Shown one piece after another: positions 11,601 through 44,326 of a stretch of DNA of 46,436 nucleotides (position 1 is its first letter; each line of letters opens with the position of its first letter). The stretch is from an uncultured Bacteroidales bacterium. GTDB taxonomy: Bacteria; Bacteroidota; Bacteroidia; Bacteroidales; FEN-979. A program made the position numbers and the translations under genes. The notes under the pieces were generated by a model. That model worked only from the letters and a program-made list of their open reading frames with translations, did not search any database and was not told the origin of the DNA. Location of the stretch: contig CAIQUS010000048.1 of NCBI GenBank assembly GCA_903875045.1, positions 1 through 46,436 of the forward strand, in the 5' to 3' direction.

Positions 11601-11742
11601 CCAAATTCCAAATTCCAAGTCTCAAATTCCAAGTTTCAAGCCGCAAATTCCAAGAAAAAAAACTCATGAAAGTTGGTGTTTTAATAAACTGTGAAAGCCA
11701 GGATTTGGGATTTAGGGCTTGGAATTTGAGACTTGGAATTTG
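11601..11742. repeat. Paired inverted heptad arrays around a 44-bp spacer
   Basis: From 11601 to 11656 eight consecutive 7-base units follow the pattern CCAAATT/TCAAATT/CCAAGTC in perfect phase. After 44 bases the same units appear in reverse (GGATTTG, GAATTTG, AGACTTG) from 11701 to 11742, again in phase. A perfect 25-base inverted repeat joins 11609-11633 to 11718-11742, so the whole could fold into a long hairpin. The right arm lies inside the predicted reading frame of the next gene. Confidence 0.9.
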
Positions 11743-13837
11743 CGATCAGAATGTCATAATTTACACCGTTTGCAGTATAATACTGTTTTTGCTGTCGTTC
11801 AACACTTCAGCCCAATGGAGTTGGATTAACCCGTTGCCCCAGGGGAACACCCTCCATGATGTGCAGTTTATCAGTGCGCTAACCGGGTTTGCCGTTGGTG
11901 ACGGGGGGACAATCCTCAAAACCATTGATGGCGGGTATACCTGGAACAGGATGGGAAACGGCTCCATGGTAAGCCTGAATTCCGTTTTTTTCCTCGATAC
12001 CTCCATCGGATGGGCTATTTCGAAAGAGTTCGAGGTCTTGTTAAAGACCACGGATGGTGGGATCACCTGGACAAAAGCCTATAATTTCGACACCTTCGAC
12101 ATGAACGATGTGTGGTTTACCGATCCCATGCACGGTGTGGCTGTTGGCTATGAATCGGTATTTATCACCAGTGATGGCGGGATAACCTGGTTGTGGAAAG
12201 GCCCGTACAGCTGGAACTATTCGATATGGTTTACAGATCCTGGTACAGCCATCATGTCAAGCGATTGGTACTTGTATAAAAGTGTTGATGGTGGAAATAC
12301 CTGGACTATTAAACAATCAAACGTTTATGGCTGGCGGGGCTCGCTTTTCTTCATGGATGCCGACATCGGGCTTCATGTGGGCGGTGCCGGTCAGATATAC
12401 AAAACCATTGACGGGGGCGAAACATGGGACAGCATTTACTCCGGCACCTCCAATGTTTTGTCAGCCTCCTATATTTTTCCAAACGGAACCGGATACGCTG
12501 TGGGCTATTCCGGAACGATGCTGAAAACCACCGATGCAGGTGCTTCCTGGGTCACGTTGCCCTCACTCACAGATTACGACCTTGAAACCATCACATTTTC
12601 CGATGCCAGCCATGGGATCATAACCGGAGAACTGGGTTTGATCCTGATCACCGAAAATGCCGGTGTTACCTGGACCTCCACTTATTCAACCGTTACAAAG
12701 AAAAACCTGAATGCTGTTTGCTTTCCCGATCAAAATACAGGATATGCCGCCGGAGGTGGTGGAACCGTCCTGAAATCGGTGAATGGGGGAAATTCATGGC
12801 AGCAACTGTCAATTCCCGTCTGGGATAATTTCTATTCGATGTTTTTCAATGACCCCCAAACCGGCTATGTTGCCGGAGCCGGTGGAACGATGTTAAAAAC
12901 CACCGACGGAGGCGGATCGTGGACCAGTCTTAGCACCGGATTTACGCATAACCTTATATGTCTTGATTTCCCGGATGACCAAATAGGTTATGCCATCGGT
13001 CTCGATCCTGGCTTCTCCGACTCAACCTACCTCTTAAAAACAACAAATGCCGGTTTATCCTGGACAGTGAAAACCCTCGGCTACGGTTCTAACAATGCCA
13101 TGGAATTCACCAGCGTTGATACCGGTTGTATGGCAGGGTACAATGGCGACATCATAAAAACGACCGATGGCGGCAACACCTGGATGCCGCAGGGAGACTT
13201 TCCCGGAGTCTACTTTTATGACATTTGTTTCCCCACCAAAAACAAAGGGTTTGCCTGTGGCTGGAGTGCAATCTATCAAACTACAGATGCAGGACTGCAC
13301 TGGGATATCCTCTATTCAGGATCACTGGGTTTCAGCCGCATCGTTTTTACAGATCCACAAAATGGTTATGCCCTGGCAAAATATGGATATAATGATTCCT
13401 GGGGGGTATTGTTTAAAACAGAAGATGGTGGTACAACCTGGAGTGATAAGCAAATCAATCTGACCGGATATTCGTTGAATGATCTTTGTTTCAAAGATGC
13501 CGACACCGGATTTGTGGTTGGCCAGAATGGCGTGATCCTGAAAACCAGCAACGGCGGGGGGATCATCACCGCCATTCAACCCGAACTCCTACCTGTCGCT
13601 TCGGCCATCGTCATCTCCCCGAATCCTTGCAGCAACCGGTTTCAAATTCAGCTTTCAGGCATAGAAAATTCAGTTTCTCTACAGATATATTCGATCCTTG
13701 GAAAGGAAGTATTTTCGAGCAAATACAATTCCGTACAGAAATTAAATGTTACGTTGCCCCTCCTGCCTTCAGCATCGTATGTGGTCAGGATCAGAACTGA
13801 TTCTGAGGTGATTGTTAAGAAACTGGTGATCCACTGA
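11666..13837 (+). CDS. YCF48-repeat protein with T9SS sorting domain (copy 1)
   Basis: The 723-residue product has 14 copies of the motif G-T-x-L-K-T-T-D-G-G-x-T-W (for example GTILKTIDGGYTW and GTMLKTTDGGGSW), about 45 residues apart, from roughly residue 70 to 640. YCF48/HCF136-type repeats build seven-bladed propellers, so 14 repeats may make two propellers (inference). The last 75 residues are a T9SS type A domain (ISPNPCSNRFQIQL to KKLVIH), so the protein is exported to the surface. Residues about 33-50 are the hydrophobic core of a signal peptide ending SAQ. The N-terminal 28 residues before it are coded partly by a heptad repeat array, so the start is uncertain; ATG 11666 is the only in-frame ATG, and a TTG within the array is an alternative. 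Function unknown; relatives are often called photosystem assembly-like only because of the repeat. Confidence 0.88.
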   Translation: MKVGVLINCESQDLGFRAWNLRLGICDQNVIIYTVCSIILFLLSFNTSAQWSWINPLPQGNTLHDVQFISALTGFAVGDGGTILKTIDGGYTWNRMGNGSMVSLNSVFFLDTSIGWAISKEFEVLLKTTDGGITWTKAYNFDTFDMNDVWFTDPMHGVAVGYESVFITSDGGITWLWKGPYSWNYSIWFTDPGTAIMSSDWYLYKSVDGGNTWTIKQSNVYGWRGSLFFMDADIGLHVGGAGQIYKTIDGGETWDSIYSGTSNVLSASYIFPNGTGYAVGYSGTMLKTTDAGASWVTLPSLTDYDLETITFSDASHGIITGELGLILITENAGVTWTSTYSTVTKKNLNAVCFPDQNTGYAAGGGGTVLKSVNGGNSWQQLSIPVWDNFYSMFFNDPQTGYVAGAGGTMLKTTDGGGSWTSLSTGFTHNLICLDFPDDQIGYAIGLDPGFSDSTYLLKTTNAGLSWTVKTLGYGSNNAMEFTSVDTGCMAGYNGDIIKTTDGGNTWMPQGDFPGVYFYDICFPTKNKGFACGWSAIYQTTDAGLHWDILYSGSLGFSRIVFTDPQNGYALAKYGYNDSWGVLFKTEDGGTTWSDKQINLTGYSLNDLCFKDADTGFVVGQNGVILKTSNGGGIITAIQPELLPVASAIVISPNPCSNRFQIQLSGIENSVSLQIYSILGKEVFSSKYNSVQKLNVTLPLLPSASYVVRIRTDSEVIVKKLVIH

Positions 13838-13844
13838 TTAATTT

Positions 13845-15938
13845 TCAATTTCTGACAACGACCAGTTTCCGGGTTTCAGCAGCATTCTCGCTCTGGAGAC
13901 GGCAAGTGAAAAGCCCTGGCTGAAAGTCTGAAGTTTGCAATATAAACTTGTGAACTCCTGAAGATTGATTTGTAAACTCCATTTTCCGGACCTGGATGCC
14001 ACGCGAATCATAAACCATAAAAGACATTGAACCCGGATTTTCCAGCATGTACGAAACTGTTACTGCTGTCGAAGCCGGGTTTGGGAAAATGGTTAACCTC
14101 CCCCGTTTCATTGCGCTGCCGGATTCTACAACTCCAACGGGCCAGCCGCCATCACTGGTGTGAAGGATGGCGCCACCATCGCCCACCACCCAGCCATGAT
14201 TTTCATCGGTAAACATGATTGCATTCAAGTATTCCTCCCTGGATATTGGTTGCGGCAGCCAGGTGGTTCCTCCGTCTTCGGTCGCCAGCATGGGCGTTTC
14301 CCAGCCTGCGACCCAGCCATGCGTTTGATTTGTAAACCAAACATCTAAAAGATTATCGGTAGTACCGCTTTCCAGTGGATACCATCCTTCTTCCGGTGCA
14401 TTCGTTTTCAGGATGGCACCACCCCATCCTACCGCCCAACCCGTATCGGCATTGATAAAATGAAAACTCTCCGGAATTCCGAACCAGCCCATAAAAATGG
14501 GCGACCAGATGGATCCACCATCCAGGGTACGGTACATTGAACCCCAGCCCAAGGCAAAGCAGATATTTTCATTGATTGCCTGGATCTTACTAATTGCATC
14601 GGTTGTTCCGCTGTTTTGACGGCTCCAGTGGAGGCCGCCATCGGTTGTTTTAAGTACGGTGCCATTTGCTCCTGATGTCCAGCCTGTTAACGCATCAGTA
14701 AAACTAACACTGGCAAGATTTCCCGAAATTCCTGTTTGCTGTCTAGTCCAGGTTGCCCCACCATCACTTGTTTTCAGAATGGTTCCTGAATCCCCGGCCG
14801 CCCAGGCTGCGCTTTCAGCAACCGTTGCCACACTGTTCAGTGTTTGGTTGGTAATATGGGTTATGTTTGTCCAAAGATCGCCCCCATTGGTCGTTTGCAC
14901 GATCGTTCCATGGTCGCCGACAGCCAAACCCTGCTCCTGGTTCCAGAAGCTGACATCATGCAACGGTTGATTCGTAACACCCTCAATCCATTCCCATGAC
15001 CCGCCGCCATTAGTGGTACGCAGCATGCAGCCTGTTACTCCTCCGGCAATTCCTGCTGAGGAATCAGCAAAACTGACACTTAACATGAATGAAAAACCAC
15101 CGGACCAGGATGTCCATGTTGTGCCTCCATCTGTCGTGTTAAAGAGCATCCCGTTCCCCCATGAGCCATATCCGCCACAAGTCCAGCCGGTGGTTGAATT
15201 GATAAAACAAATCCCATGTAAGCCAATTCCTGTTCCGATGATGGTTTGTGACCAGGAAATTCCCCCATCAGTGGTTTTCAGGACGGATCCCTCGTTGGTT
15301 GCCAGCCATCCGGTACTATCATTGATAAAGGAAAGATCATTTGCATAGTCAAAAAAATTAAGCGGAACAGACAGCCAGGTGTTTCCGCCATCCATGGTTT
15401 TAAATACCGAATCAGTTAAGGTTGTGATATAGCCGGTTACCTCATTCACCATCTGGACCTTTCCCAAATACCAGGGGGCCATTCCTGGTATATAGGTCCA
15501 ATGCGCCCCTCCATCAGAGGTTTTTAGTATTGTTCCTCCCACGCCAACAGCAACACCATGCATTGAATCGGAAAAGGATACCCCATTGAGATAAAAATTG
15601 GTGGTGTGCTGCTGCACATTCCAGGTTTCGCCCCCATCGTCGGTATGCAGAATGGTACCCAGGTCTCCAACCACCCAGCCAGTATATATATCCGTGAAAC
15701 AAACGTCCGAAAGCGTAACCAGCGTCCCGATTTGCTGTTTTTCCCAGGTACTTCCACCGTTTGTCGTTTTCACAATTAACCCTTTTTCTCCAACAGCCCA
15801 GCCGATGGCCGGGGTGACCAGCGTTACATCGTTGAATGTAAAGCCATCCATGTAAGGATTTTGCCAATACCATTGCGCCGATAACCACAACGGTAAAAGG
15901 ATCAAAAGGCAAATTGAACCTGATATTTTAAATTTCAT
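13845..15938 (-). CDS. YCF48-repeat protein with T9SS sorting domain (copy 2, inverted)
   Basis: The 697-residue product starts with a clear signal peptide (MKFKISGSICLLILLPLWLSAQ). It then has 14 YCF48-type repeats, such as GLIVKTTNGGSTW, GTILHTDDGGETW and GTVLKTTDGGLHW; one (GAILKTNAPEEGW) is degenerate. It ends in a T9SS type A domain (IFPNPASTAVTVSY to RKLVVVRN). It is convergent with copy 1, with only 7 bases between the stops, and divergent from copy 3. Its C-terminal domain differs more from the other two, so it is likely the older or separately derived copy. Predicted to be exported and surface bound. Binding partner unknown. Confidence 0.92.
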   Translation of the reverse strand: MKFKISGSICLLILLPLWLSAQWYWQNPYMDGFTFNDVTLVTPAIGWAVGEKGLIVKTTNGGSTWEKQQIGTLVTLSDVCFTDIYTGWVVGDLGTILHTDDGGETWNVQQHTTNFYLNGVSFSDSMHGVAVGVGGTILKTSDGGAHWTYIPGMAPWYLGKVQMVNEVTGYITTLTDSVFKTMDGGNTWLSVPLNFFDYANDLSFINDSTGWLATNEGSVLKTTDGGISWSQTIIGTGIGLHGICFINSTTGWTCGGYGSWGNGMLFNTTDGGTTWTSWSGGFSFMLSVSFADSSAGIAGGVTGCMLRTTNGGGSWEWIEGVTNQPLHDVSFWNQEQGLAVGDHGTIVQTTNGGDLWTNITHITNQTLNSVATVAESAAWAAGDSGTILKTSDGGATWTRQQTGISGNLASVSFTDALTGWTSGANGTVLKTTDGGLHWSRQNSGTTDAISKIQAINENICFALGWGSMYRTLDGGSIWSPIFMGWFGIPESFHFINADTGWAVGWGGAILKTNAPEEGWYPLESGTTDNLLDVWFTNQTHGWVAGWETPMLATEDGGTTWLPQPISREEYLNAIMFTDENHGWVVGDGGAILHTSDGGWPVGVVESGSAMKRGRLTIFPNPASTAVTVSYMLENPGSMSFMVYDSRGIQVRKMEFTNQSSGVHKFILQTSDFQPGLFTCRLQSENAAETRKLVVVRN

Positions 15939-16252
15939 TGATTCGATGGCAGATATGTTGTAAATTTACTAGATATTTGGTTAATAATGCGAATCATGGG
16001 TTGGAATTATTAATAATCAAATGCCGAAGGCATGATATTTTTATAGCAAATTAATGTCAAAAACCACAACGAATGCCGAAGGCATGGCATTATAATGTCA
16101 CCACTTCGTGGTTTACGATGCTTTGCATGGCCTGATTCTATAAAAATGTCAACCCTTCGGGTTTGAAAATTCAATCCTTGATTCACATTAATGACAGGTA
16201 ATGAGGTTTGTTTTTTGTTTTTTGTTTTTTAGTCAAAGAGTCACGGCGTAAG
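15939..16252. other. Intergenic region with five short perfect hairpins
   Basis: This 314-base divergent region holds no gene. It contains ATGCCGAAGGCAT at 16021-16033 and again at 16073-16085, ACCACTTCGTGGT at 16100-16112, ATGCTTTGCAT at 16118-16128 and AACCCTTCGGGTT at 16151-16163. Four have a 5-bp stem and a GAA or TTC triloop; the TTT-loop one has a 4-bp stem. A T-rich run with GTTTTTT repeats lies at 16208-16231 just before the next gene. No clean TAnnTTTG box was found for either flanking gene. Confidence 0.85.
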
Positions 16253-18328
16253 ATGAAAAATTTTCTGGTCAGACTATGGATCATCATCCTGGTCAATTTC
16301 ATTCCTGTTCATTCGATCTATTGCCAGTGGAAATGGGTAAATCCAACGCCTCAGGGACATACGCTGCATGACCTGCAATTCGTGAATGACAGCACCGGAT
16401 TCGCTGCCGGCGATGGGGGAACGATCATTAAAACCATTGATGGCGGAGCCAACTGGAACCGTCTGGAATCGGGTACTTATAAATCTCTGAGCGCACTTTC
16501 ATTTATTTCAGAATCTGTCGGATACGTTGTGAGCAGTGAGAAACTGACCCTCAAAACAACCAATGGCGGCGTAACATGGACCAACATTGGAAACGCCCCG
16601 GTGACTGGTTATTCCGACATCTGTTTCCCAGATGAACAAACAGGTTATGTAATTGGAGATCATCAGCTGTATAAAAGCGCCAACGGAGGTTTGAACTGGG
16701 CATCCATTGGCCCGTATGGCAGTTTCAGTGTTTGGTTTACAGATGCGACGCATGGCTGCATGGCGACTGCAGATGCCATTTACCAGACCAATGATGGTGG
16801 CGCGATCTGGGCAAACACCCAGCAGAACATCCATGGCAATTTTGGCGGGTTTTCTTTTCCAAATCCAATCACAGGATACCATGCCGGCGGATCCGGAACG
16901 ATTTGCAAAACCACCAATTCGGGGACGACATGGAGCATATTGTCAACAGGAACAACGCAGAACCTGCATTCAATTCATTTCCTCAACAATGACCTTGGAT
17001 TTGCTTGCGGGGATTCCGGAACCATTCTGAAAACCTCAAACGGAGGGAACAATTGGTTTGTTCAAACCTCCGGCACGCTCCGTCCCTTATATGCCATCTA
17101 TTCATTGAATGAGAACACTTGGATTGCAGTTGGGGAATATGGTTTGACACTTAAAACAACCAATGGAGGATCTACCTGGATTTCACTGTCTGTCAATGTC
17201 ACGACCGAAGATCTCAGGACGGTGTACTTCCCTTCCTCTTCCCTTGGTTTTACTTCAGGAAATTACGGGAAGGTCTTTAAAACATTGGATGCCGGGAATA
17301 CATGGGCACCATTTCCGGTTCCCACCAATGCCTGGATCAGCGCTATTTGTTTTACCGATACCAGCACGGGATATTTTGGAGGCCAGTATGGCACCATCAT
17401 GAAAACAACCAATGGCGGGAGCAACTGGAGCTGCCTGATTACCGGCACAAGCAACAATATCGTCTCCATTCAGTTTCCTGATGCTAGCCATGGCTATGTT
17501 TTATTAGATAATTGGTATACACAGAATCGTATCCTGAAAACCACCGATGCAGGGCAATCCTGGTCCATTTTGGCCACACTGCCTCTGATTTTCTTTCATT
17601 CCATGTATTTTACCAATGCAGAAACCGGGTATTTATGTGCCGATCATGGTGTGATCATGAAAACCACGGATGGTGGTCTTTCCTGGGTCCCGCTGGTTTC
17701 AGGAACCTCGAGAAATTTATGGGCGCTCTTTTTTACCAGTCCTGAAACAGGTTATGTGGCCGGAGCCAATGAGATTTTTAAAACCACCGATGCCGGTTCC
17801 ACCTGGAATTTAATTTACTGGCTGGATGATGTCATCAATTCACTCTTCTTCACGGATCCGCTTACAGGCTATGCCTTTTCCAGCTACGACAGGGTCATGC
17901 TGAAAACAACCGATGGCGGCACAACATGGGCCGATGTATACCCGAAAATAACCGGTAACAGACTTTCTGCCATGTATTTCACCCATGCTGACACCGGGTT
18001 TGTTGTTGGAAACAGCGGCACGATTCTGAAAACGACAAAAGGGGGTATCATTACAGGAATGGAGAAAGGGATGCAACCAGAGGCATTTGCGATCGAAATT
18101 TTTCCGAACCCATGCCACGGTTCTGTTCAAATTCAATTTCCATGCTCAGAAAATTTAGTCAGCATACAAATTTATTCGATCCTTGGAAAAAAAGTCTTCT
18201 CCTCTGACTATAACCACCAGAAATCCATTCACATCGCCCTGCCTTCTTTGCCTCCCGGCACTTACCTGGTAAAAATCAAAACCGATTCATCCATCCTGGT
18301 TAAAAAATTGATAGTACAAAAATCGTAA
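16253..18328 (+). CDS. YCF48-repeat protein with T9SS sorting domain (copy 3)
   Basis: The 691-residue product starts at ATG 16253 (MKNFLVRLWIIILVNFIPVHSIYCQ, signal peptide); the longer frame from a TTG at 16208 would add 15 residues coded by a T-rich tract and is unlikely. It has 14 YCF48-type repeats such as GTIIKTIDGGANW, GTIMKTTNGGSNW and GTILKTTKGG. It ends in a T9SS domain (IFPNPCHGSVQIQF to KKLIVQKS). The first 60 mature residues (W-x-NPTPQGHTLHDLQF) and the last 60 (IYSILGKKVFSS) closely match copy 1 in wording, so copies 1 and 3 are the closest pair although copy 2 lies between them. The stop codon lies within the first unit of a heptamer array. Confidence 0.92.
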   Translation: MKNFLVRLWIIILVNFIPVHSIYCQWKWVNPTPQGHTLHDLQFVNDSTGFAAGDGGTIIKTIDGGANWNRLESGTYKSLSALSFISESVGYVVSSEKLTLKTTNGGVTWTNIGNAPVTGYSDICFPDEQTGYVIGDHQLYKSANGGLNWASIGPYGSFSVWFTDATHGCMATADAIYQTNDGGAIWANTQQNIHGNFGGFSFPNPITGYHAGGSGTICKTTNSGTTWSILSTGTTQNLHSIHFLNNDLGFACGDSGTILKTSNGGNNWFVQTSGTLRPLYAIYSLNENTWIAVGEYGLTLKTTNGGSTWISLSVNVTTEDLRTVYFPSSSLGFTSGNYGKVFKTLDAGNTWAPFPVPTNAWISAICFTDTSTGYFGGQYGTIMKTTNGGSNWSCLITGTSNNIVSIQFPDASHGYVLLDNWYTQNRILKTTDAGQSWSILATLPLIFFHSMYFTNAETGYLCADHGVIMKTTDGGLSWVPLVSGTSRNLWALFFTSPETGYVAGANEIFKTTDAGSTWNLIYWLDDVINSLFFTDPLTGYAFSSYDRVMLKTTDGGTTWADVYPKITGNRLSAMYFTHADTGFVVGNSGTILKTTKGGIITGMEKGMQPEAFAIEIFPNPCHGSVQIQFPCSENLVSIQIYSILGKKVFSSDYNHQKSIHIALPSLPPGTYLVKIKTDSSILVKKLIVQKS

Positions 18329-18393
18329 TTCGTAATTCGTAATTCGTAATTCGTAATTCGTAATTCGTAATTCGTAATTCGTAATTCGTAATT
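18324..18393. repeat. Perfect heptamer array, ten copies of CGTAATT
   Basis: Ten uninterrupted copies of the 7-base unit occupy 70 bases. The TAA stop of the upstream YCF48 gene (18326-18328) is part of the first unit. The array ends 5 bases before the stop of the convergent methyltransferase gene, so it fills the entire gap. Confidence 0.97.
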
Positions 18394-18397
18394 TCTT

Positions 18398-19690
18398 CTA
18401 TTCCACAGCCAGTATCAATCCTTTCAGGTATTCTCCTTCCGGATGACAAATGTCGACCGGATGATCCGGGCCTTGTGAAAGCTGATGCAAAAGCCTCACC
18501 TGTCGCCCGGTTTCAATGGCCGCTGATTGAATGGCCGAACGGAACATCTCCCGCGAAATCGGTTGTGAACACGAAAACGTAAATAAAACACCCCCCGGCT
18601 TCAACCGTTTCATCGCTTCTGCGTTGATGTGAACATACGCATGTAGTGCATTGTTCGTTACATGGTGCGTTTTGGCAAAGGCCGGCGGATCGAGGATGAT
18701 CATATCGTATTTCTCGCGCGTTTCAACCAGAAACCGCTTGACGTCCGCCACTTCCGACCGATGTTTGGACTCATCGCATCCATTCAGCCTGATATTCTCA
18801 TCTGTCCATTCGATGGCCTGTCTGGAACTATCGATGGAATGAACCCTGGTTGCCCCTCCTTTCAGTGCATACACAGAAAATGCACCTGAATAGCAAAATG
18901 CATTCAGCACCGATTTTCCTTTGGCATAAAATTGTGCGAACATCCGGTTGCCGCGTTGGTCAAGAAAAAAACCGGTCTTTTGTCCGTGCATGAAATCGAC
19001 CAGAAAACGATGTCCCGTTTCCTCGATTTCGACCGGACCGGAGGTGCCGATGAGAAAGTGATCGGGAGATGTGGTGGACGGGTGGGCAAGTGGGCGGGTG
19101 GACGAAGGGGCAGCTGAACTGACCGATGCCTGGCGATCCGGATTGTCGGTTTTCAGGAAAAGTTTGGAATTACGGGTGATAAGTTTTGACTTTTCCATCG
19201 TCTCTGAACTCTTATCGTATACCGCAATGAGATTTTCACCATAAACTTCCCGCAAAACTTCTGTGAAAACAGGCAGCAGCCGGTGCATACCAATAGAATG
19301 GGCCTGGATAACTGCAACGCCGTTGTAATAGTCGATGATGAGGCCGGGCAACAGATCACCTTCGGAAAACACCAGACGGTATGCATTGGCGATGGAGCCT
19401 TTTGTAAGTCCAAGTCTTACCCTGAACTGGTAAGCTGTTTTTATCTTCGATTTCCAGAAATCGTCATTGACTTCAACAGCTTCAAATGAAAATATTTTCA
19501 CCGCGATGGATCCAGGCAGATAGTGCCCCAATGCCAGAAATTCCTTTCGCGCACTCAATACTTCAACAATATCGCCTTCGCGTGGAGCACCTTCAGTTTG
19601 ATCAATTGCACCGGAAAAAATCCAGGGATGAAAACGTGCAACCGCCGACTCTTTCCCCGGTTTCAGAATAATTTTGACTGAATTGGTCAT
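18398..19690 (-). CDS. RlmI-like 23S rRNA (cytosine-C5) methyltransferase with insert
   Basis: The 430-residue product has an N-terminal PUA domain (HPWIFSGAI, about residues 20-75). A class I SAM-dependent methyltransferase domain follows, with GQKTGFFLDQRGNR (about 236-249), a SAM loop NAFCYSGAFS, and the catalytic-region DPPAFAK. This is the RlmI/COG1092 family, which methylates a cytosine of 23S rRNA; Cys in the TFSCSQPI motif is the likely nucleophile partner. Residues about 166-214 are an extra, Ser/Thr/Pro-rich segment not expected in this family, coded by heptad and octad repeats (19073-19112 and near 19150-19190). The frame stays open. ATG 19690 is chosen because the upstream TTG at 19708 lies inside a -7 box. 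Its activity is likely kept, since the insert falls between the domains (inference). Confidence 0.9.
   Translation of the reverse strand: MTNSVKIILKPGKESAVARFHPWIFSGAIDQTEGAPREGDIVEVLSARKEFLALGHYLPGSIAVKIFSFEAVEVNDDFWKSKIKTAYQFRVRLGLTKGSIANAYRLVFSEGDLLPGLIIDYYNGVAVIQAHSIGMHRLLPVFTEVLREVYGENLIAVYDKSSETMEKSKLITRNSKLFLKTDNPDRQASVSSAAPSSTRPLAHPSTTSPDHFLIGTSGPVEIEETGHRFLVDFMHGQKTGFFLDQRGNRMFAQFYAKGKSVLNAFCYSGAFSVYALKGGATRVHSIDSSRQAIEWTDENIRLNGCDESKHRSEVADVKRFLVETREKYDMIILDPPAFAKTHHVTNNALHAYVHINAEAMKRLKPGGVLFTFSCSQPISREMFRSAIQSAAIETGRQVRLLHQLSQGPDHPVDICHPEGEYLKGLILAVE
19073..19112. repeat. Octad repeats inside the RlmI-like gene
   Basis: Five consecutive 8-base units of the type GGTGGACG, GGTGGGCA, AGTGGGCG in phase, read on the minus strand as part of the Ser/Thr/Pro-rich insert. 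Just beyond, near 19150-19190, are 7-base-spaced words (CCCGTAA, TTCCAAA on the minus strand) like those of the intergenic arrays. Confidence 0.75.
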
Positions 19691-19765: not shown

Positions 19766-19885
19766 AAATTCCAAATTCCAAATTCCAAGACTCAAATTCC
19801 AAATTCCGCATTTAAAGTTGTTAAACCAAAGCTCTTTATTTCTTCCCCTGGGATTTGGAGTTTGGGATTTGCAACTTGGATTTTT
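19766..19885. repeat. Second paired inverted heptad element, 43-bp spacer
   Basis: Six in-phase units (AAATTCC, with one AAGACTC) occupy 19766-19807. After 43 bases, reversed units (GGATTTG, GAGTTTG, CAACTTG) occupy 19851-19885. The layout and spacer length nearly equal those of the 11601-11742 element, while the exact units differ. The element lies in the 332-base gap between the divergent RlmI-like and lipoprotein genes; the rest of that gap holds only the two promoter boxes. Confidence 0.88.
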
Positions 19886-22054: not shown

Positions 22055-22103
22055 GTGACAAGTGACAAGTTACAAATGAAAAATGACGGGTGACAGGTAA
22101 GTG
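22055..22103. repeat. Degenerate heptad run GTGACAA / GTGACAG
   Basis: Six or seven successive 7-base units (GTGACAA twice, then GTTACAA, ATGAAAA, ATGACGG, GTGACAG) stay in phase in the gap between the convergent EEP and MORN genes. Confidence 0.7.
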
Positions 22104-27495: not shown

Positions 27496-27530
27496 GGGTG
27501 ATGGGTGACACATGACACGTGACTGGTGAA
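27496..27530. repeat. Degenerate heptad run GGGTGAT / ACGTGAC
   Basis: Five 7-base units (GGGTGAT, GGGTGAC, ACATGAC, ACGTGAC, TGGTGAA) in phase in the gap between the TonB receptor and PLD-like genes. A TGA core recurs every 7 bases. Confidence 0.65.
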
Positions 27531-31686: not shown

Positions 31687-34600
31687 TTAAATGTTAGTAA
31701 CTTTTAATATTTGGAATGGTTCCAATCTTACAAGGGCTTCGCTAATCCCCGGCACATCAGGGAATGTCATAAATAATTTGTTTCTTTCCTCCGTCATTTT
31801 GCACTTCGACGGATTATGCTTCAGGTATTCCAGGATGGCGGTAAACTGGTCGGACTGAAAATAGCCCGACTCAGGATTGTTAATGAAATAGGCTGTCATC
31901 CTCTGATTCCGCAACACAAGTTTTTCAAAACCTATGGAGCGTGCAAGCCAGCGAAGCCTGATGGTGTGAAGCAACAAAACAGTCTGTTTTGGGATCGGTC
32001 CGAAACGGTCGATCATCCGTTCCATGAATTTCATCAGATTTTCTTCTGTTTCAATGGAATCCAGTTCTTTGTAGAGGTTAAGCCTTTCGGTAATGTTTGA
32101 AATGTAATAATCCGGAATAAGGATTTCCATATCGGTTTCTATCACACAGTCCCTGACATAGGTTTTCGGCCCCTCGCTCGGATATAAATCTTTGAAGTCG
32201 GTCTCTTTCAATTCAACCAGCGCCTCATCCAGGATTTTCTGATACATTTCATACCCGATTTCCGAGATAAAGCCACTTTGTTCAGCTCCCAGGATATTCC
32301 CTGCACCGCGGATGTCGAGGTCGCGCATGGCAATGTTAAATCCACTGCCCAGGTCGGCAAACTCTTCAATGGCACGCAACCGTTTACGGGCTTCATCGGT
32401 AAGCGTCGACATGGGTGGCGCCAGCAGGTAACAAAATGCTTTTTTATTGGAGCGTCCAACCCTGCCGCGTAACTGATGCAGGTCGCTTAAACCATAATGA
32501 TGGGCATCGTTGATGATGATGGTATTCACATTCGAGATATCGAGGCCCGATTCAATAATGGTCGTGGCAATCAGAACATCATACTCGCCTTCAATGAAAT
32601 CGAGCATCACTTTTTCGAGTTTGTGCCCATCCATCTGGCCATGGGCCACGGCAACTTTTACACCGGGAACCATGCGTTGAACCATCACCGAAATATCCAT
32701 GATATTCAGCACCCTGGTAGTGACGAAAAACACCTGTCCGCCCCGCTGAACTTCATACGTGATGGCCTCTTTGATAACATCTTCACCAAAAGGATGTATC
32801 TCAGTTTGAACCGGGTATCGGTTTGGCGGTGGTGTATTGATGATGGAAAGGTCGCGGGCACCCATGAGCGAAAATTGCAGAGTCCGCGGAATCGGCGTGG
32901 CAGTTAAGGTGAGTGTATCCACATTCACCCGCATCATTTTCATCTTCTCTTTGGCCCCGACACCGAATTTTTGTTCTTCATCAACGATGAGCAATCCAAG
33001 GTCTTTAAACACAATATCTTTGCTAAGAAGGCGATGTGTGCCAATCAGAATATCGATTTTACCATCTTCCAGGTCTATCAGCAATTGCTTTTGCTCCTTG
33101 GCTGATTTAAACCGGTTGATGTAATCAACACGACAGGGAAATGCCTTCAGGCGGTCGGCAAAAGTTTTGTAGTGCTGTAAAGCAAGGATGGTAGTAGGAA
33201 CTAAAACACCAACCTGTTTGCTCTCCGTGACCACTTTGAAGGCTGCCCGGATGGCAATTTCCGTTTTTCCGAAACCGACATCACCGCAAATCAGGCGGTC
33301 CATCGGATAAGCTTCTTCGAGATCCTTCTTCACATCAACGGTTGCTTTGATCTGATCTGGTGTATCTTCATAGATAAATGAAGCTTCCAATTCCGTTTGC
33401 AGATAGGTATCCGGCGCACAGGCAAGCCCTTGCGCAGCACGCCGCTCGGCATACAACTTGATCAGTTCCCTTGCAATATCCTTGACCCGGCTCTTGGTTT
33501 TATTTTTCAGCTTGTTCCAAACATCCGACCCAAGCCGGTTCATCACCGGTGCGGTTCCCTCCTTGCCAATGTATTTTGAGATCCTGTGAAGTGAATGAAT
33601 GCTGACATACAGCAAATCTTCATTCTTGTAAATCAGCCGGATAGCCTCCTGCTCCTTGCCATTATTGATAATCTTTTCCAACCCGTCGAATCGCCCCACA
33701 CCATGATCGATATGGGTCACATAGTCGCCGGGGCGGAGATCATACAGATCTTTCAATGTCAGGGCCTCTTTGGCGGTATACCCGTCGCGGAGATGGAATT
33801 TATGGTAACGCTCAAAAATCTGATGGTCGGTGTAACAGGCGATTTTCAGGTCTTTGTCGAGGAAACCTTCGTGGAGGGAGAAGTTGACAGTGGCACTTAA
33901 GGAAGTACGATTGACGATTGACGATTGACGATTGATCGTGAGATCAGAGGTTCGTTTTGACTCTAAATCCTCAAAAATACTCTGAAGACGCTCGGCTTGT
34001 TTGGGATTATCGGCGAGAAGGAAATTCTGGTACCCATTTTCAGAATTTTTGTGAATATCCTGAAGTAACAGGTCGAAGTTCTTATTAAAGGAAGGTTGTG
34101 GCGACGTGTCGAAAACCACCGGCTGGCCGGTTTTAAAATAAAATTGCTGCCCGAATTCAAGGGATGTGTGATTTAGAAGCGATTTCAGAAATTCGCTGCC
34201 ATGTACCAGCAGGTCGGAATCGGGCTGCTGTTCCAGCAGGTGGGCCATCGCTCCGGCATCTTCAATCCATATCACCGCTTTTTCAGGTAAAAATGCGAAA
34301 ATAGATTCGTAGGCAATTTTTTTATCGGCATTTACCCTGATATCTGGCACGATGCTAATCTCCTGAAACATCTGGATTGAAAGCTGGCTGGAAGGATCAA
34401 AAGACCGGATGGAAGCCACTTTGTCCCCGGCAAAATCAATCCTGAAAGGATGATCGTTGCTGAATGAATAAACATCGATCAATCCGCCACGGAGTGAGAA
34501 CTGACCAGGCTCTGCCACAAAATCGGCCCGTTCAAACTCATACTCCAGCAGCAGGTCAAGTATGAAATCCATGTTGACCTGCTCCCCCACCGACAATTGA

Positions 34601-35025
34601 AGTGTGTTTTTTTCGAGATATTTTTTATTGACGACCTTCTCCGCAATAGCTTCAGGATAGCTGACAATGATGGATTTCCGTGTCCGGCTGTTGAGCAGGT
34701 TCAGCACCTCCGTCCGTGAAAGCAAACCCTGGTTGTCCTTGACCCCGGTTTGAAATCCGCGTTTGAACGAAGATGGGAAATAGTATACCCGGTCGCCAAG
34801 AATTTGCTGAAGGTCATTAAAAAAGTAGGCTGCAGTTTCCTTGTCGGGCAGCAATACCAGGTGGGTCTGGGTGGTTCCTTCAAAAACAGCTGCGGTGACA
34901 AGTGACCGTGAAGAGCCAACAAGGCCTTTTAAGTGGAGACGGAAACGAGTTTCCCGGAAATGCTTTACAATCTCCTGTACCAGGGGATGTTCTTTGAACA
35001 GCGATAAGAGATCGGCAGGCTTCAA
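31687..35025 (-). CDS. mfd: Transcription-repair coupling factor
   Basis: The 1112-residue Mfd releases stalled RNA polymerase and recruits UvrA. It has a UvrB-like N-terminal part, a CarD/RID domain near residue 440 (HIDHGVGRFDGLEKI), a RecG-like helicase with Walker A GDVGFGKTE near 580, DEEQKFGV near 683, RGRVGR near 853, and a C-terminal TRCF domain. A start codon TTG at 35025 is the only one in the frame; the gene begins 7 bases after the stop of fbp, so translation is likely coupled. Around residue 366-380 the frame contains a segment (RQSSIVNRTS) coded by four heptamers, between conserved blocks; I believe it is an insertion. Length is otherwise normal. Confidence 0.96.
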   Translation of the reverse strand: MKPADLLSLFKEHPLVQEIVKHFRETRFRLHLKGLVGSSRSLVTAAVFEGTTQTHLVLLPDKETAAYFFNDLQQILGDRVYYFPSSFKRGFQTGVKDNQGLLSRTEVLNLLNSRTRKSIIVSYPEAIAEKVVNKKYLEKNTLQLSVGEQVNMDFILDLLLEYEFERADFVAEPGQFSLRGGLIDVYSFSNDHPFRIDFAGDKVASIRSFDPSSQLSIQMFQEISIVPDIRVNADKKIAYESIFAFLPEKAVIWIEDAGAMAHLLEQQPDSDLLVHGSEFLKSLLNHTSLEFGQQFYFKTGQPVVFDTSPQPSFNKNFDLLLQDIHKNSENGYQNFLLADNPKQAERLQSIFEDLESKRTSDLTINRQSSIVNRTSLSATVNFSLHEGFLDKDLKIACYTDHQIFERYHKFHLRDGYTAKEALTLKDLYDLRPGDYVTHIDHGVGRFDGLEKIINNGKEQEAIRLIYKNEDLLYVSIHSLHRISKYIGKEGTAPVMNRLGSDVWNKLKNKTKSRVKDIARELIKLYAERRAAQGLACAPDTYLQTELEASFIYEDTPDQIKATVDVKKDLEEAYPMDRLICGDVGFGKTEIAIRAAFKVVTESKQVGVLVPTTILALQHYKTFADRLKAFPCRVDYINRFKSAKEQKQLLIDLEDGKIDILIGTHRLLSKDIVFKDLGLLIVDEEQKFGVGAKEKMKMMRVNVDTLTLTATPIPRTLQFSLMGARDLSIINTPPPNRYPVQTEIHPFGEDVIKEAITYEVQRGGQVFFVTTRVLNIMDISVMVQRMVPGVKVAVAHGQMDGHKLEKVMLDFIEGEYDVLIATTIIESGLDISNVNTIIINDAHHYGLSDLHQLRGRVGRSNKKAFCYLLAPPMSTLTDEARKRLRAIEEFADLGSGFNIAMRDLDIRGAGNILGAEQSGFISEIGYEMYQKILDEALVELKETDFKDLYPSEGPKTYVRDCVIETDMEILIPDYYISNITERLNLYKELDSIETEENLMKFMERMIDRFGPIPKQTVLLLHTIRLRWLARSIGFEKLVLRNQRMTAYFINNPESGYFQSDQFTAILEYLKHNPSKCKMTEERNKLFMTFPDVPGISEALVRLEPFQILKVTNI
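33907..33934. repeat. Four heptamers ACGATTG inside mfd
   Basis: Four perfect copies of ACGATTG in an otherwise conserved coding sequence. On the coding strand the unit reads CAATCGT, in successive frames, giving the residues NRQSSIVNR. The total of 28 bases is not a multiple of three; flanking bases keep the frame. Confidence 0.95.
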
Positions 35026-39636: not shown

Positions 39637-39637
39637 G

Positions 39638-39685
39638 TGGTGAAATGGTGAAATGGTGAAAAGGCGAAATGGTGAAATGGTGAAC
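39638..39685. repeat. Six octads TGGTGAAA between dehydrogenase and RND exporter genes
   Basis: Six in-phase 8-base units: four exact TGGTGAAA, with one AGGCGAAA and one TGGTGAAC. The array abuts the start codon of the minus-strand dehydrogenase at 39636. Confidence 0.92.
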
Positions 39686-39755
39686 AAATCTACCATCCCT
39701 GCAATATTCGACACACAAAGGTATGAGAGATTCACAATTTTCAATAAGGTTTTTG

Positions 39756-39763
39756 TACTTTTG
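39756..39763 (+). promoter_or_regulatory. -7 box TACTTTTG for the RND exporter gene
   Basis: Exact TAnnTTTG match, 18 bases before the GTG at 39782, followed by GCGCC as at the aspartate kinase promoter. Confidence 0.6.
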
Positions 39764-39781
39764 CGCCCTAATTCAAAAATT

Positions 39782-42172
39782 GTGTGGAATTATCTGGTTA
39801 AGTTGATTTTAAGGAACCGAATCACTATTCTGATCGTGATTGCGGTGATGACAAGCTTCATGGCCTATGAGGCATTTCATGTGAAGATACAATATGAAAA
39901 TGCCAGTATATTACCTGCCAAAGATTCCACAAGCATTGTTTACCATCAGTTTATCAAACAATTTGGCCAGGACGGAACAGTCATGTTCATTGGCATCGTC
40001 GATCAAAACTTTTTCCGGCTGTCAAATTTCAATGCGGTTTACGACCTGACTGATTCCTTAAAAAAGATTCGGGGGGTGGCAGAAATTGTTTCAGTGACAA
40101 GGCTTTATAACCTGGTGAAAAACGATTCGCTGAAAAAATTCGAATTCATCCCCATCTCACCGCGCAAGCCTGCCAGTCAGCAGAAACTTGACTCGATAAA
40201 ATCACTGATATACAGTTTGCCATTTTACAATGAACTGATTTACAACAAATCCACATCAGCATTCCTGATGGCATTGACGCTTGACAAAAAAATCATCGAC
40301 TCCAAAGAACGCGACCGGCTGATCGATGATGTGAGAAATACCATGGAGCGGTTTTCTGAAAAATCGAAAGTGGAGGTTCACTTTTCCGGGCTTCCTTACA
40401 TCCGCACACTGGTTGCCCGAAAATTACAGAACGAGTTGAAACTCTTCATTTTCCTGGCCCTGCTGGTGAGTGCCTTATTTCTCTTCATTTTTTTCCGGTC
40501 GGCCAAAGCAGTAATTTTTCCTGTGGTCATCATGCTCATCAGCGTTTTCTGGGCATTAGGCCTCATGGCCCTCTTCGGGTATAAAATCACCATGCTCACC
40601 TCGATCATCCCTCCGCTGGTTATTGTAATTGCTGTCGAAAACTGTATCTTCATCCTGAATAAATATCATTACGAATACAGTCTTCACCGCAACCAGGCCA
40701 AAGCATTGTCGCGCGTGATCCAACGCATCGGAGCAGCCAATCTCCTTACCAATGCCGCTACCGCCGCTGGTTTCGCTGCCTTTACCATCACCAACAACAA
40801 ACTGCTTGTCGAATTCGGGTTAATTGCAGCCATCAGCATCATGGTTATTTATGCACTTTCGCTCACCCTTGTTCCGATCTTCTTCAGTTTTCTGCCGCCC
40901 CCTGAAAGCAAGTACACAAAACACATCGAGGAAAGTGTTGCAAAATCATTGATTGAGAAGGCTGTGTTCCTGGTAACCTATCATCGCAACCCAATCTATA
41001 TAACCATGGCTGTTTGCATTGTGATTGGCGTGGCAGGCGCATTCAGGTTGAAAACTAGCGGAACCATTGTTGACGATATCTCAAAACGTGATCCAATCTA
41101 TACTGATATGATGTTCTTTGAAAAGAATTTCAAAGGAATCATGCCCCTTGAAATAGTTGTTGACACAAAGAAGAAAAAGGGAGTTCTTAACCTTGCCACC
41201 CTGAAAAAAATTGATCGTTTGCAAGATACCCTTCGCACCTATAAGGAATTGTCCAAGCCTTTGTCGATTGTAGAAGTCATCAAAACTGCCAAACAGGCTT
41301 TTTATGCCGGCGATCCTCAGTTTTACGAACTGCCGAACTCCAATGAATTGGCTTTCATGGCAGGCTATATTCCATCCTTCAAGTCAAAAAAACGTTCGCT
41401 TCTTGATAATTTTATCGACTCAACATACCAGGTCACCCGAATCAGTGTTCAAATGGCCAATGTCGGCACCGTAAAGATCGACAGCATCCAGCAAAGCCTT
41501 AAACCAACAATCGATTCCATTTTCAGTCCGGCAAAATACAATGTCACCATCACAGGAACAAGTGTGGTTTTTTTAAAGGGAACTAACTTCCTGATCAGAA
41601 ACTTGTGGGAGAGCATTGCACTGGCAGTTGTGATCATTGCATTATTGCTGGCTTTTCTGTTTACTTCATGGCGTATGATCCTGATCTCCCTGATCCCGAA
41701 TTTGATCCCACAACTCATGACTGCAGCCCTGATGGGTTTCACCGGCATTCCGATCAAACCCTCCACGATCCTTATCTTCAGCATTGCCCTTGGGATTTCC
41801 GTGGATAATTCCATTCAGTTCCTTTCACGATACCGGCTTCAGTTAAAACACACAGGCCATCATATCCCCTCTTCTGTGATTTCTGCCCTGCGTGAAACAG
41901 GTTACAGCATGATCTATTCATCCACGGTACTGTTTTTCGGCTTTGGGATCTTCGTACTTTCTACCTTTGGCGGCACACAGGCGCTCGGGTTTCTGATCTC
42001 TTTCACGCTGCTGGTGGCGGGTTTACTCAATATGTTCGTGCTTCCGGCAATGTTACTGACCCTGGATAAATGGAGTACCACCAAAGCCTTTGAAGAACCC
42101 CTGGTAGACATCTTCGAGGATAATGCCGATCTGGATACACAGGATTTTGACTTTGAAAAAAAAGAAAAATAA
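39782..42172 (+). CDS. RND / MMPL family exporter
   Basis: The 796-residue product has about 12 membrane segments in two halves. Each half has a large outer loop and a sterol-sensing-like cluster (helices near residues 210-370 and 620-765). Motifs such as VENCIFILNKYHYEY and GISVDNSIQFLSRYR contain the Asp/Glu-Asn pair typical of MMPL/HpnN-type transporters. Substrates of relatives are lipids or hopanoids; here unknown. The start at GTG 39782 (VWNYLVKLILRNR) is chosen, since the longer frame from 39653 is coded by the octad array and precedes the promoter box. Inner membrane. The downstream gene rfbA begins 77 bases after its stop. Confidence 0.88.
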   Translation: MWNYLVKLILRNRITILIVIAVMTSFMAYEAFHVKIQYENASILPAKDSTSIVYHQFIKQFGQDGTVMFIGIVDQNFFRLSNFNAVYDLTDSLKKIRGVAEIVSVTRLYNLVKNDSLKKFEFIPISPRKPASQQKLDSIKSLIYSLPFYNELIYNKSTSAFLMALTLDKKIIDSKERDRLIDDVRNTMERFSEKSKVEVHFSGLPYIRTLVARKLQNELKLFIFLALLVSALFLFIFFRSAKAVIFPVVIMLISVFWALGLMALFGYKITMLTSIIPPLVIVIAVENCIFILNKYHYEYSLHRNQAKALSRVIQRIGAANLLTNAATAAGFAAFTITNNKLLVEFGLIAAISIMVIYALSLTLVPIFFSFLPPPESKYTKHIEESVAKSLIEKAVFLVTYHRNPIYITMAVCIVIGVAGAFRLKTSGTIVDDISKRDPIYTDMMFFEKNFKGIMPLEIVVDTKKKKGVLNLATLKKIDRLQDTLRTYKELSKPLSIVEVIKTAKQAFYAGDPQFYELPNSNELAFMAGYIPSFKSKKRSLLDNFIDSTYQVTRISVQMANVGTVKIDSIQQSLKPTIDSIFSPAKYNVTITGTSVVFLKGTNFLIRNLWESIALAVVIIALLLAFLFTSWRMILISLIPNLIPQLMTAALMGFTGIPIKPSTILIFSIALGISVDNSIQFLSRYRLQLKHTGHHIPSSVISALRETGYSMIYSSTVLFFGFGIFVLSTFGGTQALGFLISFTLLVAGLLNMFVLPAMLLTLDKWSTTKAFEEPLVDIFEDNADLDTQDFDFEKKEK

Positions 42173-42248
42173 ATAAATCCATCATCTAATTTCACCAATT
42201 GTTTCAATTGTTTATTAACTTTACCTGATTGTTTCTAATATCTGTCAC

Positions 42249-43109
42249 ATGAAAGGAATTATTTTAGCCGGAGGCGCCGGCACACGTCTGCACCCGCTGA
42301 CCCTTGCCGTGAGCAAACAGCTCATGCCTATTTACGACAAACCGATGATCTATTATCCGCTGTCGGTGCTTATGATGGCCGGGATCAATGAGATCCTGAT
42401 CATTTCAACCCCACACGACCTGCCCCATTTCAAATTACTTCTTGGGGATGGAAAATCATTGGGGTGTTCATTTTCTTATGCAGAACAAGCTATTCCTAAC
42501 GGACTTGCACAGGCATTTGTGATCGGGGAGTCATTCATTGGCAAGGATAAAGTCGCGCTGGTTCTCGGCGATAACATCTTCTTTGGCAATGGTCTTTCGC
42601 AATTGGTGCATGACAACAACGATCCTTCCGGCGGCGTGGTTTTCGCATACCATGTGAATGACCCGGAACGATATGGGGTTGTGGAGTTTGACAATGATTT
42701 CAATGCCTTGTCCATCGAAGAAAAACCCGTGAAACCAAAATCGAATTTTGCTGTTCCAGGCTTATACTTTTATGACAATACCGTTATTGAAGTTGCCAAA
42801 AACATGAAACCCAGTGCACGCGGAGAATACGAAATTACCGATGTGAACCGCTGGTATCTTGAAAAGGGCAAACTGAAGGTTGGCGTATTGAGCCGTGGCA
42901 TTGCCTGGTTGGATACGGGAACATTTGAATCGCTGCTGCAGGCATCACAGTTTGTAGAGGTTGTTCAAAACCGCCAGGGACTCAAAATCGGATGTATCGA
43001 GGAAATTGCCTACCGGATGAAATTTATCACACGTGATCAGCTCATCCAGATAGCTCAACCACTGTTGAAAAGCGGGTATGGGCAATACCTTATCAACCTG
43101 ACGGATTAG
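42249..43109 (+). CDS. rfbA: Glucose-1-phosphate thymidylyltransferase
   Basis: The 286-residue product makes dTDP-glucose for rhamnose and other deoxysugars. The N-terminus has the nucleotidyl motif [16 protein letters not shown], followed by [25 protein letters not shown], the [10 protein letters not shown] block and [14 protein letters not shown]. Length matches RmlA. No rfbB, rfbC or rfbD gene is in the window, so the pathway must be completed elsewhere. It is followed by an 8-base repeat array that separates it from the polyprenyl synthase gene. Confidence 0.95.
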
Positions 43110-43147
43110 AAAGTGTTAAGTGTTAAGTTTTAAATATTCAGTTTATC

Positions 43148-43304
43148 TGGTCACCTGGTCACCAGTTTACCACTTTACCAGTTTACCACTTTACCACTTT
43201 ACCAGTTTACCACTTTACCACTTTACCACTTTACCACTTTACCACTTTACCAGTTTACCACTTTACCACTTTACCACTTTACCAGTTTACCAGTTTACCA
43301 GTTT
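43148..43304. repeat. Octad array: 17 copies of CASTTTAC, preceded by two TGGTCACC
   Basis: From 43163 to 43298 seventeen perfectly phased 8-base units differ only at the third base, which is G (CAGTTTAC) or C (CACTTTAC). A partial unit follows. Two units of TGGTCACC lie immediately before. The array ends three bases before the ATG at 43307, so it replaces the usual leader of that gene. Confidence 0.97.
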
Positions 43305-43306
43305 TT

Positions 43307-44281
43307 ATGCAATCCCAACAATCTCTCCAAACCCGGATCAGTGAAGCATTTTCCGGGACGAAATTCAATCAGGAACCGCTTCAGCTTTATCAACCCATTG
43401 AGTACACCCTCGATATGGGTGGCAAACGTTTGCGCCCATTGCTGGTGCTGATGTCGTGTGATATCTTTGGTGGTGATATTGAAAAAGCTGTTTATCCGGC
43501 CATGGGAGTTGAAATCTTCCACAATTTCACCTTGCTTCACGATGACATCATGGACAACGCCCCTTTACGCCGGGGAAATACCACGGTACATCAAAAATGG
43601 GATGCCAATACAGCAATTCTTTCGGGTGATACCATGTTTGTAATTGCTTATGAGTATGTTGCAAAAACAGATCCGGCCTTGTTGCCTGAAGTGCTCGACC
43701 TTTTCAACGATACGGCCCGAAAAGTATGCGAAGGACAGCAATACGACATGAATTTTGAAACCCAGGGAGATGTTTCAATCCCCGATTACATGCTGATGAT
43801 CAGGCTGAAAACAGCAGTTTTGATAGCTTGCAGCCTGAAACTTGGCGCCATTCTGGCAAACGCCAGCCAGGCTGATGCAGACAAAATTTACGAATTTGGG
43901 ATTGAACTCGGTTTAGCCTTCCAGTTACAGGATGATTTTCTCGATGCATTCGGCGAGACAAGCAAGTTTGGGAAAGCCATCGGAGGCGATATTGCCACAA
44001 ATAAAAAGACCTATCTTTTCCTGAAAGCCTTTGAGCTGGCAAAGGGGGATACCCTGATCCAACTCACAAATTTTTATTCTGACAAGGAAATTGGTATCCC
44101 ACAAAAAACGGAAGGGATTTTACACATTTACCGAAAATTAAAAATTGATGAAATAACCCGCGTTGAAATTGAATATCATCACGAAAAAGCCATGGGAATT
44201 CTAAAATCATTTCAATTTAACCCTGAGATAACAAATAAACTCATTGCCCTCATGCAGGAAATGCTTGGCCGGGAACGATAA
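43307..44281 (+). CDS. Polyprenyl diphosphate synthase
   Basis: The 324-residue trans-prenyltransferase extends isoprenyl diphosphates. It has GGKRLRPLLVL, the first aspartate-rich motif LLHDDIMDN (about residue 77-85) followed by RRG, and the second aspartate-rich motif QLQDDFLD (near residue 208). Product length (farnesyl, geranylgeranyl or octaprenyl) cannot be set from motifs alone; the residues before the first motif are bulky, hinting at shorter products (weak inference). The ATG at 43307 is taken; an overlapping frame from 43120 is only translated repeat. The leader is an octad array, so expression may depend on transcripts from rfbA. Confidence 0.93.
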   Translation: MQSQQSLQTRISEAFSGTKFNQEPLQLYQPIEYTLDMGGKRLRPLLVLMSCDIFGGDIEKAVYPAMGVEIFHNFTLLHDDIMDNAPLRRGNTTVHQKWDANTAILSGDTMFVIAYEYVAKTDPALLPEVLDLFNDTARKVCEGQQYDMNFETQGDVSIPDYMLMIRLKTAVLIACSLKLGAILANASQADADKIYEFGIELGLAFQLQDDFLDAFGETSKFGKAIGGDIATNKKTYLFLKAFELAKGDTLIQLTNFYSDKEIGIPQKTEGILHIYRKLKIDEITRVEIEYHHEKAMGILKSFQFNPEITNKLIALMQEMLGRER

Positions 44282-44284
44282 CCT

Positions 44285-44326
44285 AAATCGTAAATCGTAA
44301 ATCGTAAATCCCAAATCGTAAATCCC
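44285..44326. repeat. Six heptads AAATCGT / AAATCCC
   Basis: Six consecutive 7-base units, ending either in CGT or CCC (order CGT, CGT, CGT, CCC, CGT, CCC), fill the gap between the convergent polyprenyl synthase and ABC-F genes. Confidence 0.95.

Follow-up and report, generated by a model that had tools for sequence, protein, structure and literature searches.

Tandem arrays of very short units are dispersed over a contig of an uncultured Bacteroidales bacterium (GTDB lineage Bacteria; Bacteroidota; Bacteroidia; Bacteroidales; FEN-979; contig CAIQUS010000048.1 of assembly GCA_903875045.1). The whole stretch of 46,436 nucleotides that was analysed (positions 1 to 46,436, forward strand) is called the window below. 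An earlier inspection of the letters alone, the sequence-only reading, had noted that the period of these arrays was 7 or 8 bp at every site, although the unit differed. The locus thus raises the question of whether such arrays form a class of their own and, if so, what keeps them. In related species the arrays keep their place and usually their period, while the spelling of the unit changes.

Arrays of period 7 and 8 form a distinct class

Ten intervals of the window had been proposed to carry 7- or 8-bp arrays, and each was scored by self-match at lags 5-12 against 1000 Markov windows of equal length. The best lag was 7 in seven of them and 8 in the other three (starting at 19073, 39638 and 43148), and no interval was equalled by more than 1 in 1000 Markov windows, which bears out the proposal for all ten. 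Tandem Repeats Finder detected nine, the exception being 27496-27530, and two of those detected were degenerate (19073-19112 with 76% matches and 22055-22103 with 73%). A scan of the window at lags 3 to 30 returned arrays at 7, 8 and their multiples only; what Tandem Repeats Finder listed at other periods was, apart from one 43-bp repeat, mostly low-scoring and only about two copies long (periods 9-12). The list of intervals itself had to be amended, as 11601-11742 and 19766-19885 each proved to be two arrays in opposite orientation and an AAGTGTT array at 43111-43133, reported by Tandem Repeats Finder, had been overlooked.

The genome to which the window belongs (G000; other G and L labels denote other genomes and loci) was sampled in 40 stretches, 20 at every twelfth contig and 20 picked before any array was counted, which together comprise 529,208 bases (17,662 of them N) and cover about 9% of the genome. 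This sample held 24 arrays of period 7 and 27 of period 8, against six at 14, four each at 9 and 16, two each at 3, 15 and 18, and one each at 4, 6, 12 and 19. Two Markov-5 copies of the sample gave eight arrays in total, none of them at period 7 or 8. Equal numbers at other periods had been named as the result that would speak against a special class, and no other period exceeded six. Most stretches begin at a contig start, where arrays are over-represented (the first 500 contig bases hold 9 of 53 arrays of 7 or 8 bp in 3% of the sampled bases; the total is 53 because different splitting of the 8-bp arrays gave 29 of them in this tally), and so the density is somewhat inflated; without these bases the counts were 21 and 23. 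The same excess suggests that the arrays probably break assembly at contig ends. Arrays at contig ends were also seen at L045 1-171 and, from base 3, in contigs C89 and C94 of G007.

These observations bear on whether the arrays could be an assembly artefact or contamination. This genome and many of its relatives are drafts of many contigs, and, given the excess at contig starts, some array lengths may be wrong. However, the same sites and periods recur in separate genomes of other species (see below) and the Markov controls lack 7- and 8-bp arrays, so that we regard an artefactual origin of the class as having a negligible chance of being correct.

A sister class of 9-bp arrays, less frequent and with the core GCATTG, was seen at L014 10035-10071, L042 16796-16855, L045 6028-6050, L086 90-154 and in gap g21|g22 of G014. 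A 19-bp tandem array at L047 16661-16749 (unit AAAGACGCTGACAGGTCTG) is unrelated to the 7- and 8-bp units.

Place and period are shared between species while units change

For comparison across species we used the window and syntenic blocks of 11 congeneric species (12 species, 414,763 bases), with 27 window proteins as anchors. Relaxed detection gave 99 arrays, of which 48 had period 7 and 32 period 8, followed by eight at 6, five at 9, four at 11 and two at 10. The site test was made without 12 block-edge arrays and without any period besides 7 and 8. Arrays of different species at the same site had the same period in 76% of 134 pairs, compared with 51% after shuffling (0/2000 shuffles), and for intergenic sites alone the agreement was 70% of 105 pairs compared with 49% (0/2000). 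Gap g26|g27, which follows the polyprenyl synthetase gene, is occupied in seven of the 12 species, with period 7 every time; the divergent gap g23|g24 is likewise occupied in seven of the 12, with period 8 every time (the array of G013 being scored under g22|g24).

The units at such a site are not constant. In gap g26|g27 the unit is TCGTAAA in G000, G018 and G009 (with a TCGTATA variant also present in G009), TCGTCAT in G004, ATTGGTC in G008, CGCGTCA in G013 and ACTGCCG in G003. The length of the array at shared sites differs between species as well, the comparison being one of species and not of strains, and several congeners have no array at a gap that is occupied elsewhere. Between species, units at the same site were closer than units at different sites (4/1000 and 0/1000).

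When units were aligned over rotation and strand, with arrays of less than 85% lag identity excluded, the 7-bp units gave the consensus NTCGTMA with 6.41 bits (70 arrays; shuffled 3.81-4.05) and the 8-bp units NNKGGYRA with 6.66 bits (59 arrays; shuffled 4.60-4.70), the arrays in both sets not being independent, as several have a site or species in common. The suggestion that the units share words and are not random therefore holds. AAATCGT is the unit of 7 of the 24 sampled 7-bp arrays of G000, and many different 8-bp units coexist in this genome.

Arrays favour gaps between convergent genes

According to the sequence-only reading, the arrays sit almost only at the edges of genes or in frame within them, and their placement agrees with this: 57 of the 72 placed arrays lie in intergenic gaps, so that the class is mainly noncoding, and 15 lie in anchor coding sequence. 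Of 42 convergent gaps 21 held an array, compared with 8 of 37 divergent and 13 of 126 tandem ones; tested against the tandem gaps, the difference had p = 2.4e-7 for convergent and p = 0.09 for divergent gaps. These gap counts, which exclude the paralogous G004 hits g07-g09, are not independent, since the same gaps recur in several species.

Fourteen of the 15 coding arrays fall in two genes. By its Pfam domains the gene at 31687-35025 encodes Mfd, the transcription-repair coupling factor. Eight of the 12 species have a short 7-bp array, at roughly the same offset, in the linker from its UvrB-interaction domain to its RID domain (in the window an in-frame CAATCGT array, 33907-33935, minus strand). 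These eight arrays have seven spellings, with G000 and G018 alike, and the mfd reading frame is open in all 12 species compared. The second gene encodes a PUA-SAM methyltransferase, presumably RlmI-like, in which 8-bp arrays occupy the linker in G000, G009 and G013; that of G000 is degenerate and lies in the stretch separating the two domains (19073-19112, minus strand). The methyltransferase frame is open in the seven species compared.

Some neighbouring arrays face each other. In the window, a 7-bp CAAATTC array with 14- and 21-bp higher order (11598-11654, plus strand), in a gap between two same-strand genes, is the left arm of an inverted pair whose right arm (11701-11746, minus strand; TTGGAATTTGAGAC on the plus strand) stands at the start of the next reading frame, and an AAATTCC array (19766-19807, plus strand) is paired with a right arm at 19849-19883 (minus strand; TGGGATT on the plus strand). 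Inverted pairs were thus noted at 11598-11746 and 19766-19883 of the window, and also in gap g12|g13 of G018 and gap o32|o34 of G025. To judge from their sequence, such pairs could form long hairpins. The 16 adjacent pairs of the same period comprised 8 direct, 7 inverted and 1 tied, so that orientation looks random.

The convergent-gap preference, the hairpin-capable inverted pairs and the shared cores NTCGTMA and NNKGGYRA are what would be expected if the arrays were selected elements, kept because a protein (acting at transcript ends, on the nucleoid or as a regulator) binds the unit core. On the other hand, units at the same site differ between species, arrays are found inside Mfd and the methyltransferase, the corresponding gap lacks an array in several congeners, and the core positions of the 8-bp arrays were not clearly spared from change within arrays. 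Selection for such a function is therefore improbable in our view, and no function is needed to explain the array data.

Neighbouring units within arrays are most alike

The distribution of unit variants along the arrays is informative about the process that keeps them. With terminal units excluded, neighbouring units in 36 variable arrays differed at 0.63 positions, compared with 0.80 after shuffling (0/2000), and the effect remained without G029, a genome exceptionally rich in one unit (0.66 compared with 0.86; 0/2000; 25 arrays). At lag 2 the units of the same 36 arrays showed no likeness beyond shuffling (0.82 compared with 0.80); accordingly, alternation of units was rejected as a rule, though single arrays do alternate (with a 14-bp period in G018). 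Some arrays, in G009, G003 and L035, show a gradient of spellings along their length. Likeness of neighbouring units is expected from slippage by one unit followed by local take-over.

We therefore favour, as the probable though by no means certain explanation, that these are lineage-specific arrays kept by one-unit replication slippage at insertion-tolerant places and inherited together with their period. According to this model, slippage in steps of one unit would maintain the arrays; the tolerant places would be the gaps between convergent genes and flexible protein linkers; and an array would be inherited at its place along with its period. A point change in one unit could spread to adjoining units by local duplication and eventually take over the array, so that spelling would turn over while place and period persist. 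The idea of a polymerase behaviour that produces steps of 7-8 bases survives in this form, as slippage is still the best reading of the data, but the motor itself is deduced from its traces.

Several results weigh against this explanation. Among the 47 arrays with at least six units, just 12 showed the neighbour effect singly (p<=0.05), periods are mixed at some sites (g12|g13 and g21|g22), and inverted neighbouring arrays are about as frequent as direct ones (7 and 8 of 16, with one tie). The rarity of periods 5, 6 and 10 is not explained by slippage itself. Moreover, slippage alone cannot bring one unit to many unrelated sites, as seen for AAATCGT in G000 (7/24) and for one 8-mer present 538 times in G029. 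To account for such bursts of one unit in a genome, short pieces of existing arrays may be copied into other permissive sites, possibly by template switching in replication or repair.

Unit spelling can be genome-specific

The burst in G029 was followed through related genomes. The exact pattern GGTGAAAT, three times repeated, was found in 11 of 61 relatives, with 538 matches in G029, 104 in G014 and at most 14 in each of the other nine (two in G000), and three congeners of G029 had 0, 1 and 0 matches to its abundant 8-mer. The reversed control of this pattern gave nine matches in G000, where it is not neutral because the pattern read backwards is that genome's own CCACTTTA unit. A 160-kb sample of G029 held 25 arrays with seven-base units and 19 with eight-base units, AAATGGTG being the unit in 13 of the 19; the corresponding numbers were four and five in 160 kb of its congener G025 and one and none in 140 kb of its congener G032. 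The G029 sample is biased, as seven of its eight stretches came from a contig already known to be rich in AAATGGTG. The remaining stretch (20 kb), chosen beforehand, held nine 7/8-bp arrays, with AAATGGTG in two of its three eight-base arrays, and the whole-genome counts of GGTGAAAT are unaffected by the choice of stretches.

Such contrasts could reflect concerted evolution, in which a trans-acting process rewrites or reseeds inherited sites with the dominant unit of the genome while the period of each site is kept; we consider this possible but clearly less probable than slippage with local take-over. A specific version of it, somewhat more doubtful again, is a trans-acting homogeniser: ectopic gene conversion, or template switching from array to array, would rewrite dispersed arrays to a unit typical of the genome, inherited sites changing their spelling together. 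A test limited to species with three or more arrays, and to a single array for each 500-bp place, indeed found the 8-bp units to be closer within than between species (2.65 and 3.30; 1/2000), also without G029 (2.87 and 3.49; 5/2000). G029, G025, G035 and G455 have their own units at the same gaps, and G008 has ACAGGGTR-like units at four sites, as a homogeniser would predict. However, a wide variety of 8-bp units coexists in G000, and independent reseeding of permissive sites by the currently common unit would look alike. For 7-bp units the species effect was weak (30/2000 with G029, 308/2000 without it and 127/1000 in the synteny blocks), and was rejected as not robust. Base composition was doubted as a source of species-specific units, since G+C in the synteny blocks ranged just from 0.443 to 0.499.

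A reverse transcriptase is not required

The sequence-only reading had also allowed for a common template, and one way to supply it would be a dedicated RNA-templated enzyme, telomerase-like as in DRT10, that writes the arrays. As described in the part of PMC12632851 consulted, DRT10 makes short tandem-repeat DNA in bacteria; furthermore, the units here share a core. Against this, reverse-transcriptase (RVT_1) domains were found in 16 of 19 genomes of the genus and not in G011, G012 and G013, drafts that are 95-97% complete, and two of these three nevertheless carry arrays (106 heptamer-pattern matches in G012 and 8-bp arrays in G013). Within the limits of such drafts, the arrays therefore do not require an RVT_1 enzyme and its template. 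Each genome has many different units, with adjoining units most alike, a pattern that speaks against a common template. The DRT10 repeats, again from that part of the source, are 9 nt long and the product is enriched as non-chromosomal DNA, and of the three reverse transcriptases of G000 the one examined best matches defence and retron-type models. Taken together, writing of the arrays by such an enzyme appears very unlikely.

The class is a trait of the family

Outside the genus but within the same family, 15 stretches (270 kb) held 15 arrays of period 7 and 12 of period 8, followed by four at 14 and two each at 12 and 15; G029 supplied 9 of the 27 arrays of period 7 or 8. Five stretches (100 kb) from the order outside the family had no array at 7 or 8. 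Similarly, the TCGTMA heptamer pattern was present in 17 of 19 genomes of the genus, 17 of 18 other genomes of the family and, beyond the family, 3 of 24 genomes of the order; its abundance was very uneven, from 0 to 370 matches per genome. As pattern and arrays are frequent inside the family and rare or absent in the order outside it, the 7/8-bp class is a trait of the family.

Two further sets of loci, all of them surrounding the polyprenyl synthetase gene, which is itself an array site in the genus of G000, extended the comparison. Nine loci of close relatives (133 kb) gave 17 arrays of period 7, seven of period 8 and, as the next most frequent, five of period 9, and 71 loci from other Bacteroidota (1.18 Mb) gave 17 of period 7 and five of period 8, compared with nine at 15, eight at 9 and seven at 14. 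Of 395 Bacteroidota genomes, 47 contain the TCGTMA heptamer pattern and 26 contain its reversed control, and outside G000 the total matches are similar (289 and 234); one universal unit across the phylum was therefore rejected. Heptamer arrays are therefore widespread in Bacteroidota, but the unit is lineage-specific. Genomes of the Bacteroidota family f49 such as G187, G287, G346 and G357 had 26 to 38 matches to the reversed heptamer control, which points to another lineage with its own heptamer spelling.

Other arrays of the window

The remaining arrays of the window are all on the plus strand as written. Three lie between convergent genes: a perfect 7-bp CGTAATT array of 10.1 copies (18323-18393), a degenerate 7-bp GTGACAA array (22055-22103) and a 7-bp CGTAAAT array in gap g26|g27 (44282-44327). 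A degenerate stretch rich in GGTGA/GTGAC, with its best lag at 7 (0.71), is at 27496-27530, and the divergent gap g23|g24 holds the 8-bp array TGGTGAAA (39638-39687). The AAGTGTT array (7 bp; 43111-43133), present also in G002, G004 and G018, lies immediately 3' of a stop codon and is followed by 8-bp arrays of CTGGTCAC and then ACCASTTT (18 copies) that reach the next start codon (43147-43304). The 43-bp repeat (9513-9630; 2.7 copies, 94% matches) has a unit that contains the palindrome CCGTCAGCTTTAGCTGACGG and lies shortly before a gene end. No Rfam family matched the window at gathering scores.

Relation to known repeats and implications

Heptamer arrays as such are already known, Bacteroidetes included, and the statement that no Bacteroidota case had been described has to be withdrawn: MacGregor (2015; PMC4679880), in the sections consulted, reports TAACTGA arrays in Beggiatoaceae, Cyanobacteria and five Bacteroidetes. 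Those arrays resemble the present ones in being intergenic and of 7 bp, with relatives that have or lack an array at a given site, but they have one unit (found in none of the 24 sampled 7-bp arrays of G000) and in the type genome lie mostly upstream of starts, unlike the many units, mostly at convergent gene ends, seen here. As summarised in the same sections, Mrazek (2007) described long simple sequence repeats of 5-11 nt with heptamers most abundant, and the idea of slippage is credited to that work. The arrays reported here fall within that description (units of 5-11 nt in runs longer than chance) and share with those repeats the heptamer units, the dispersed distribution and the proposal of slippage; they differ in that 8-bp arrays are as common as 7-bp arrays, in having two related unit families, and in that place and period have been followed across species.

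In the parts consulted of Rehm (2015; PMC4692102), the heptamers GGGNATC of Xanthomonas and GGGGA(C/T)T of Nostoc are described. The Xanthomonas heptamers are likewise genome-wide; 83% of them recur at the corresponding place in a second species, with differing lengths, and inverted pairs occur. However, the Xanthomonas/Nostoc unit is conserved, G4-forming and prefers aligned genes, whereas the units of the present arrays vary and mostly lack G-tracts. No G-tract is present in the consensus NTCGTMA, and GGG occurs in some 8-bp units, so that a minority could qualify as being of the G-quadruplex type. The families of 6-8-nt repeats in Burkholderia and the (GATAGRA)n repeats of Chloroflexus (PMC6749651) are alike in that several related short-unit families are scattered through one genome, but the portion of that source consulted compares neither orthologous sites nor the periods at individual sites. 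In the literature excerpts searched, a paired 7/8-bp class in which the period is specific to the site while the units change was not described. What is new here is apparently the paired 8-bp class, the memory of site and period, and the genome-specific turnover of units.

Both the dominance of heptamers among long bacterial repeats and the occurrence of identical units at unrelated places are unsettled in the literature, as far as the excerpts cover them. With two periods, many shared sites and sharp contrasts between congeners (G029 compared with G025 and G032), slippage, reseeding and homogenisation give different predictions, and shared array places with changing units provide a natural experiment on the spread and turnover of short repeats in bacteria. 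In practical terms, 7/8-bp arrays often lie at the contig ends of draft assemblies. The example of Mfd shows that the linker of a conserved repair protein can hold a fast-changing repeat. If the tentative case for concerted evolution is correct, sister species would differ genome-wide in the spelling of their repeats and not in the places where the repeats are found.

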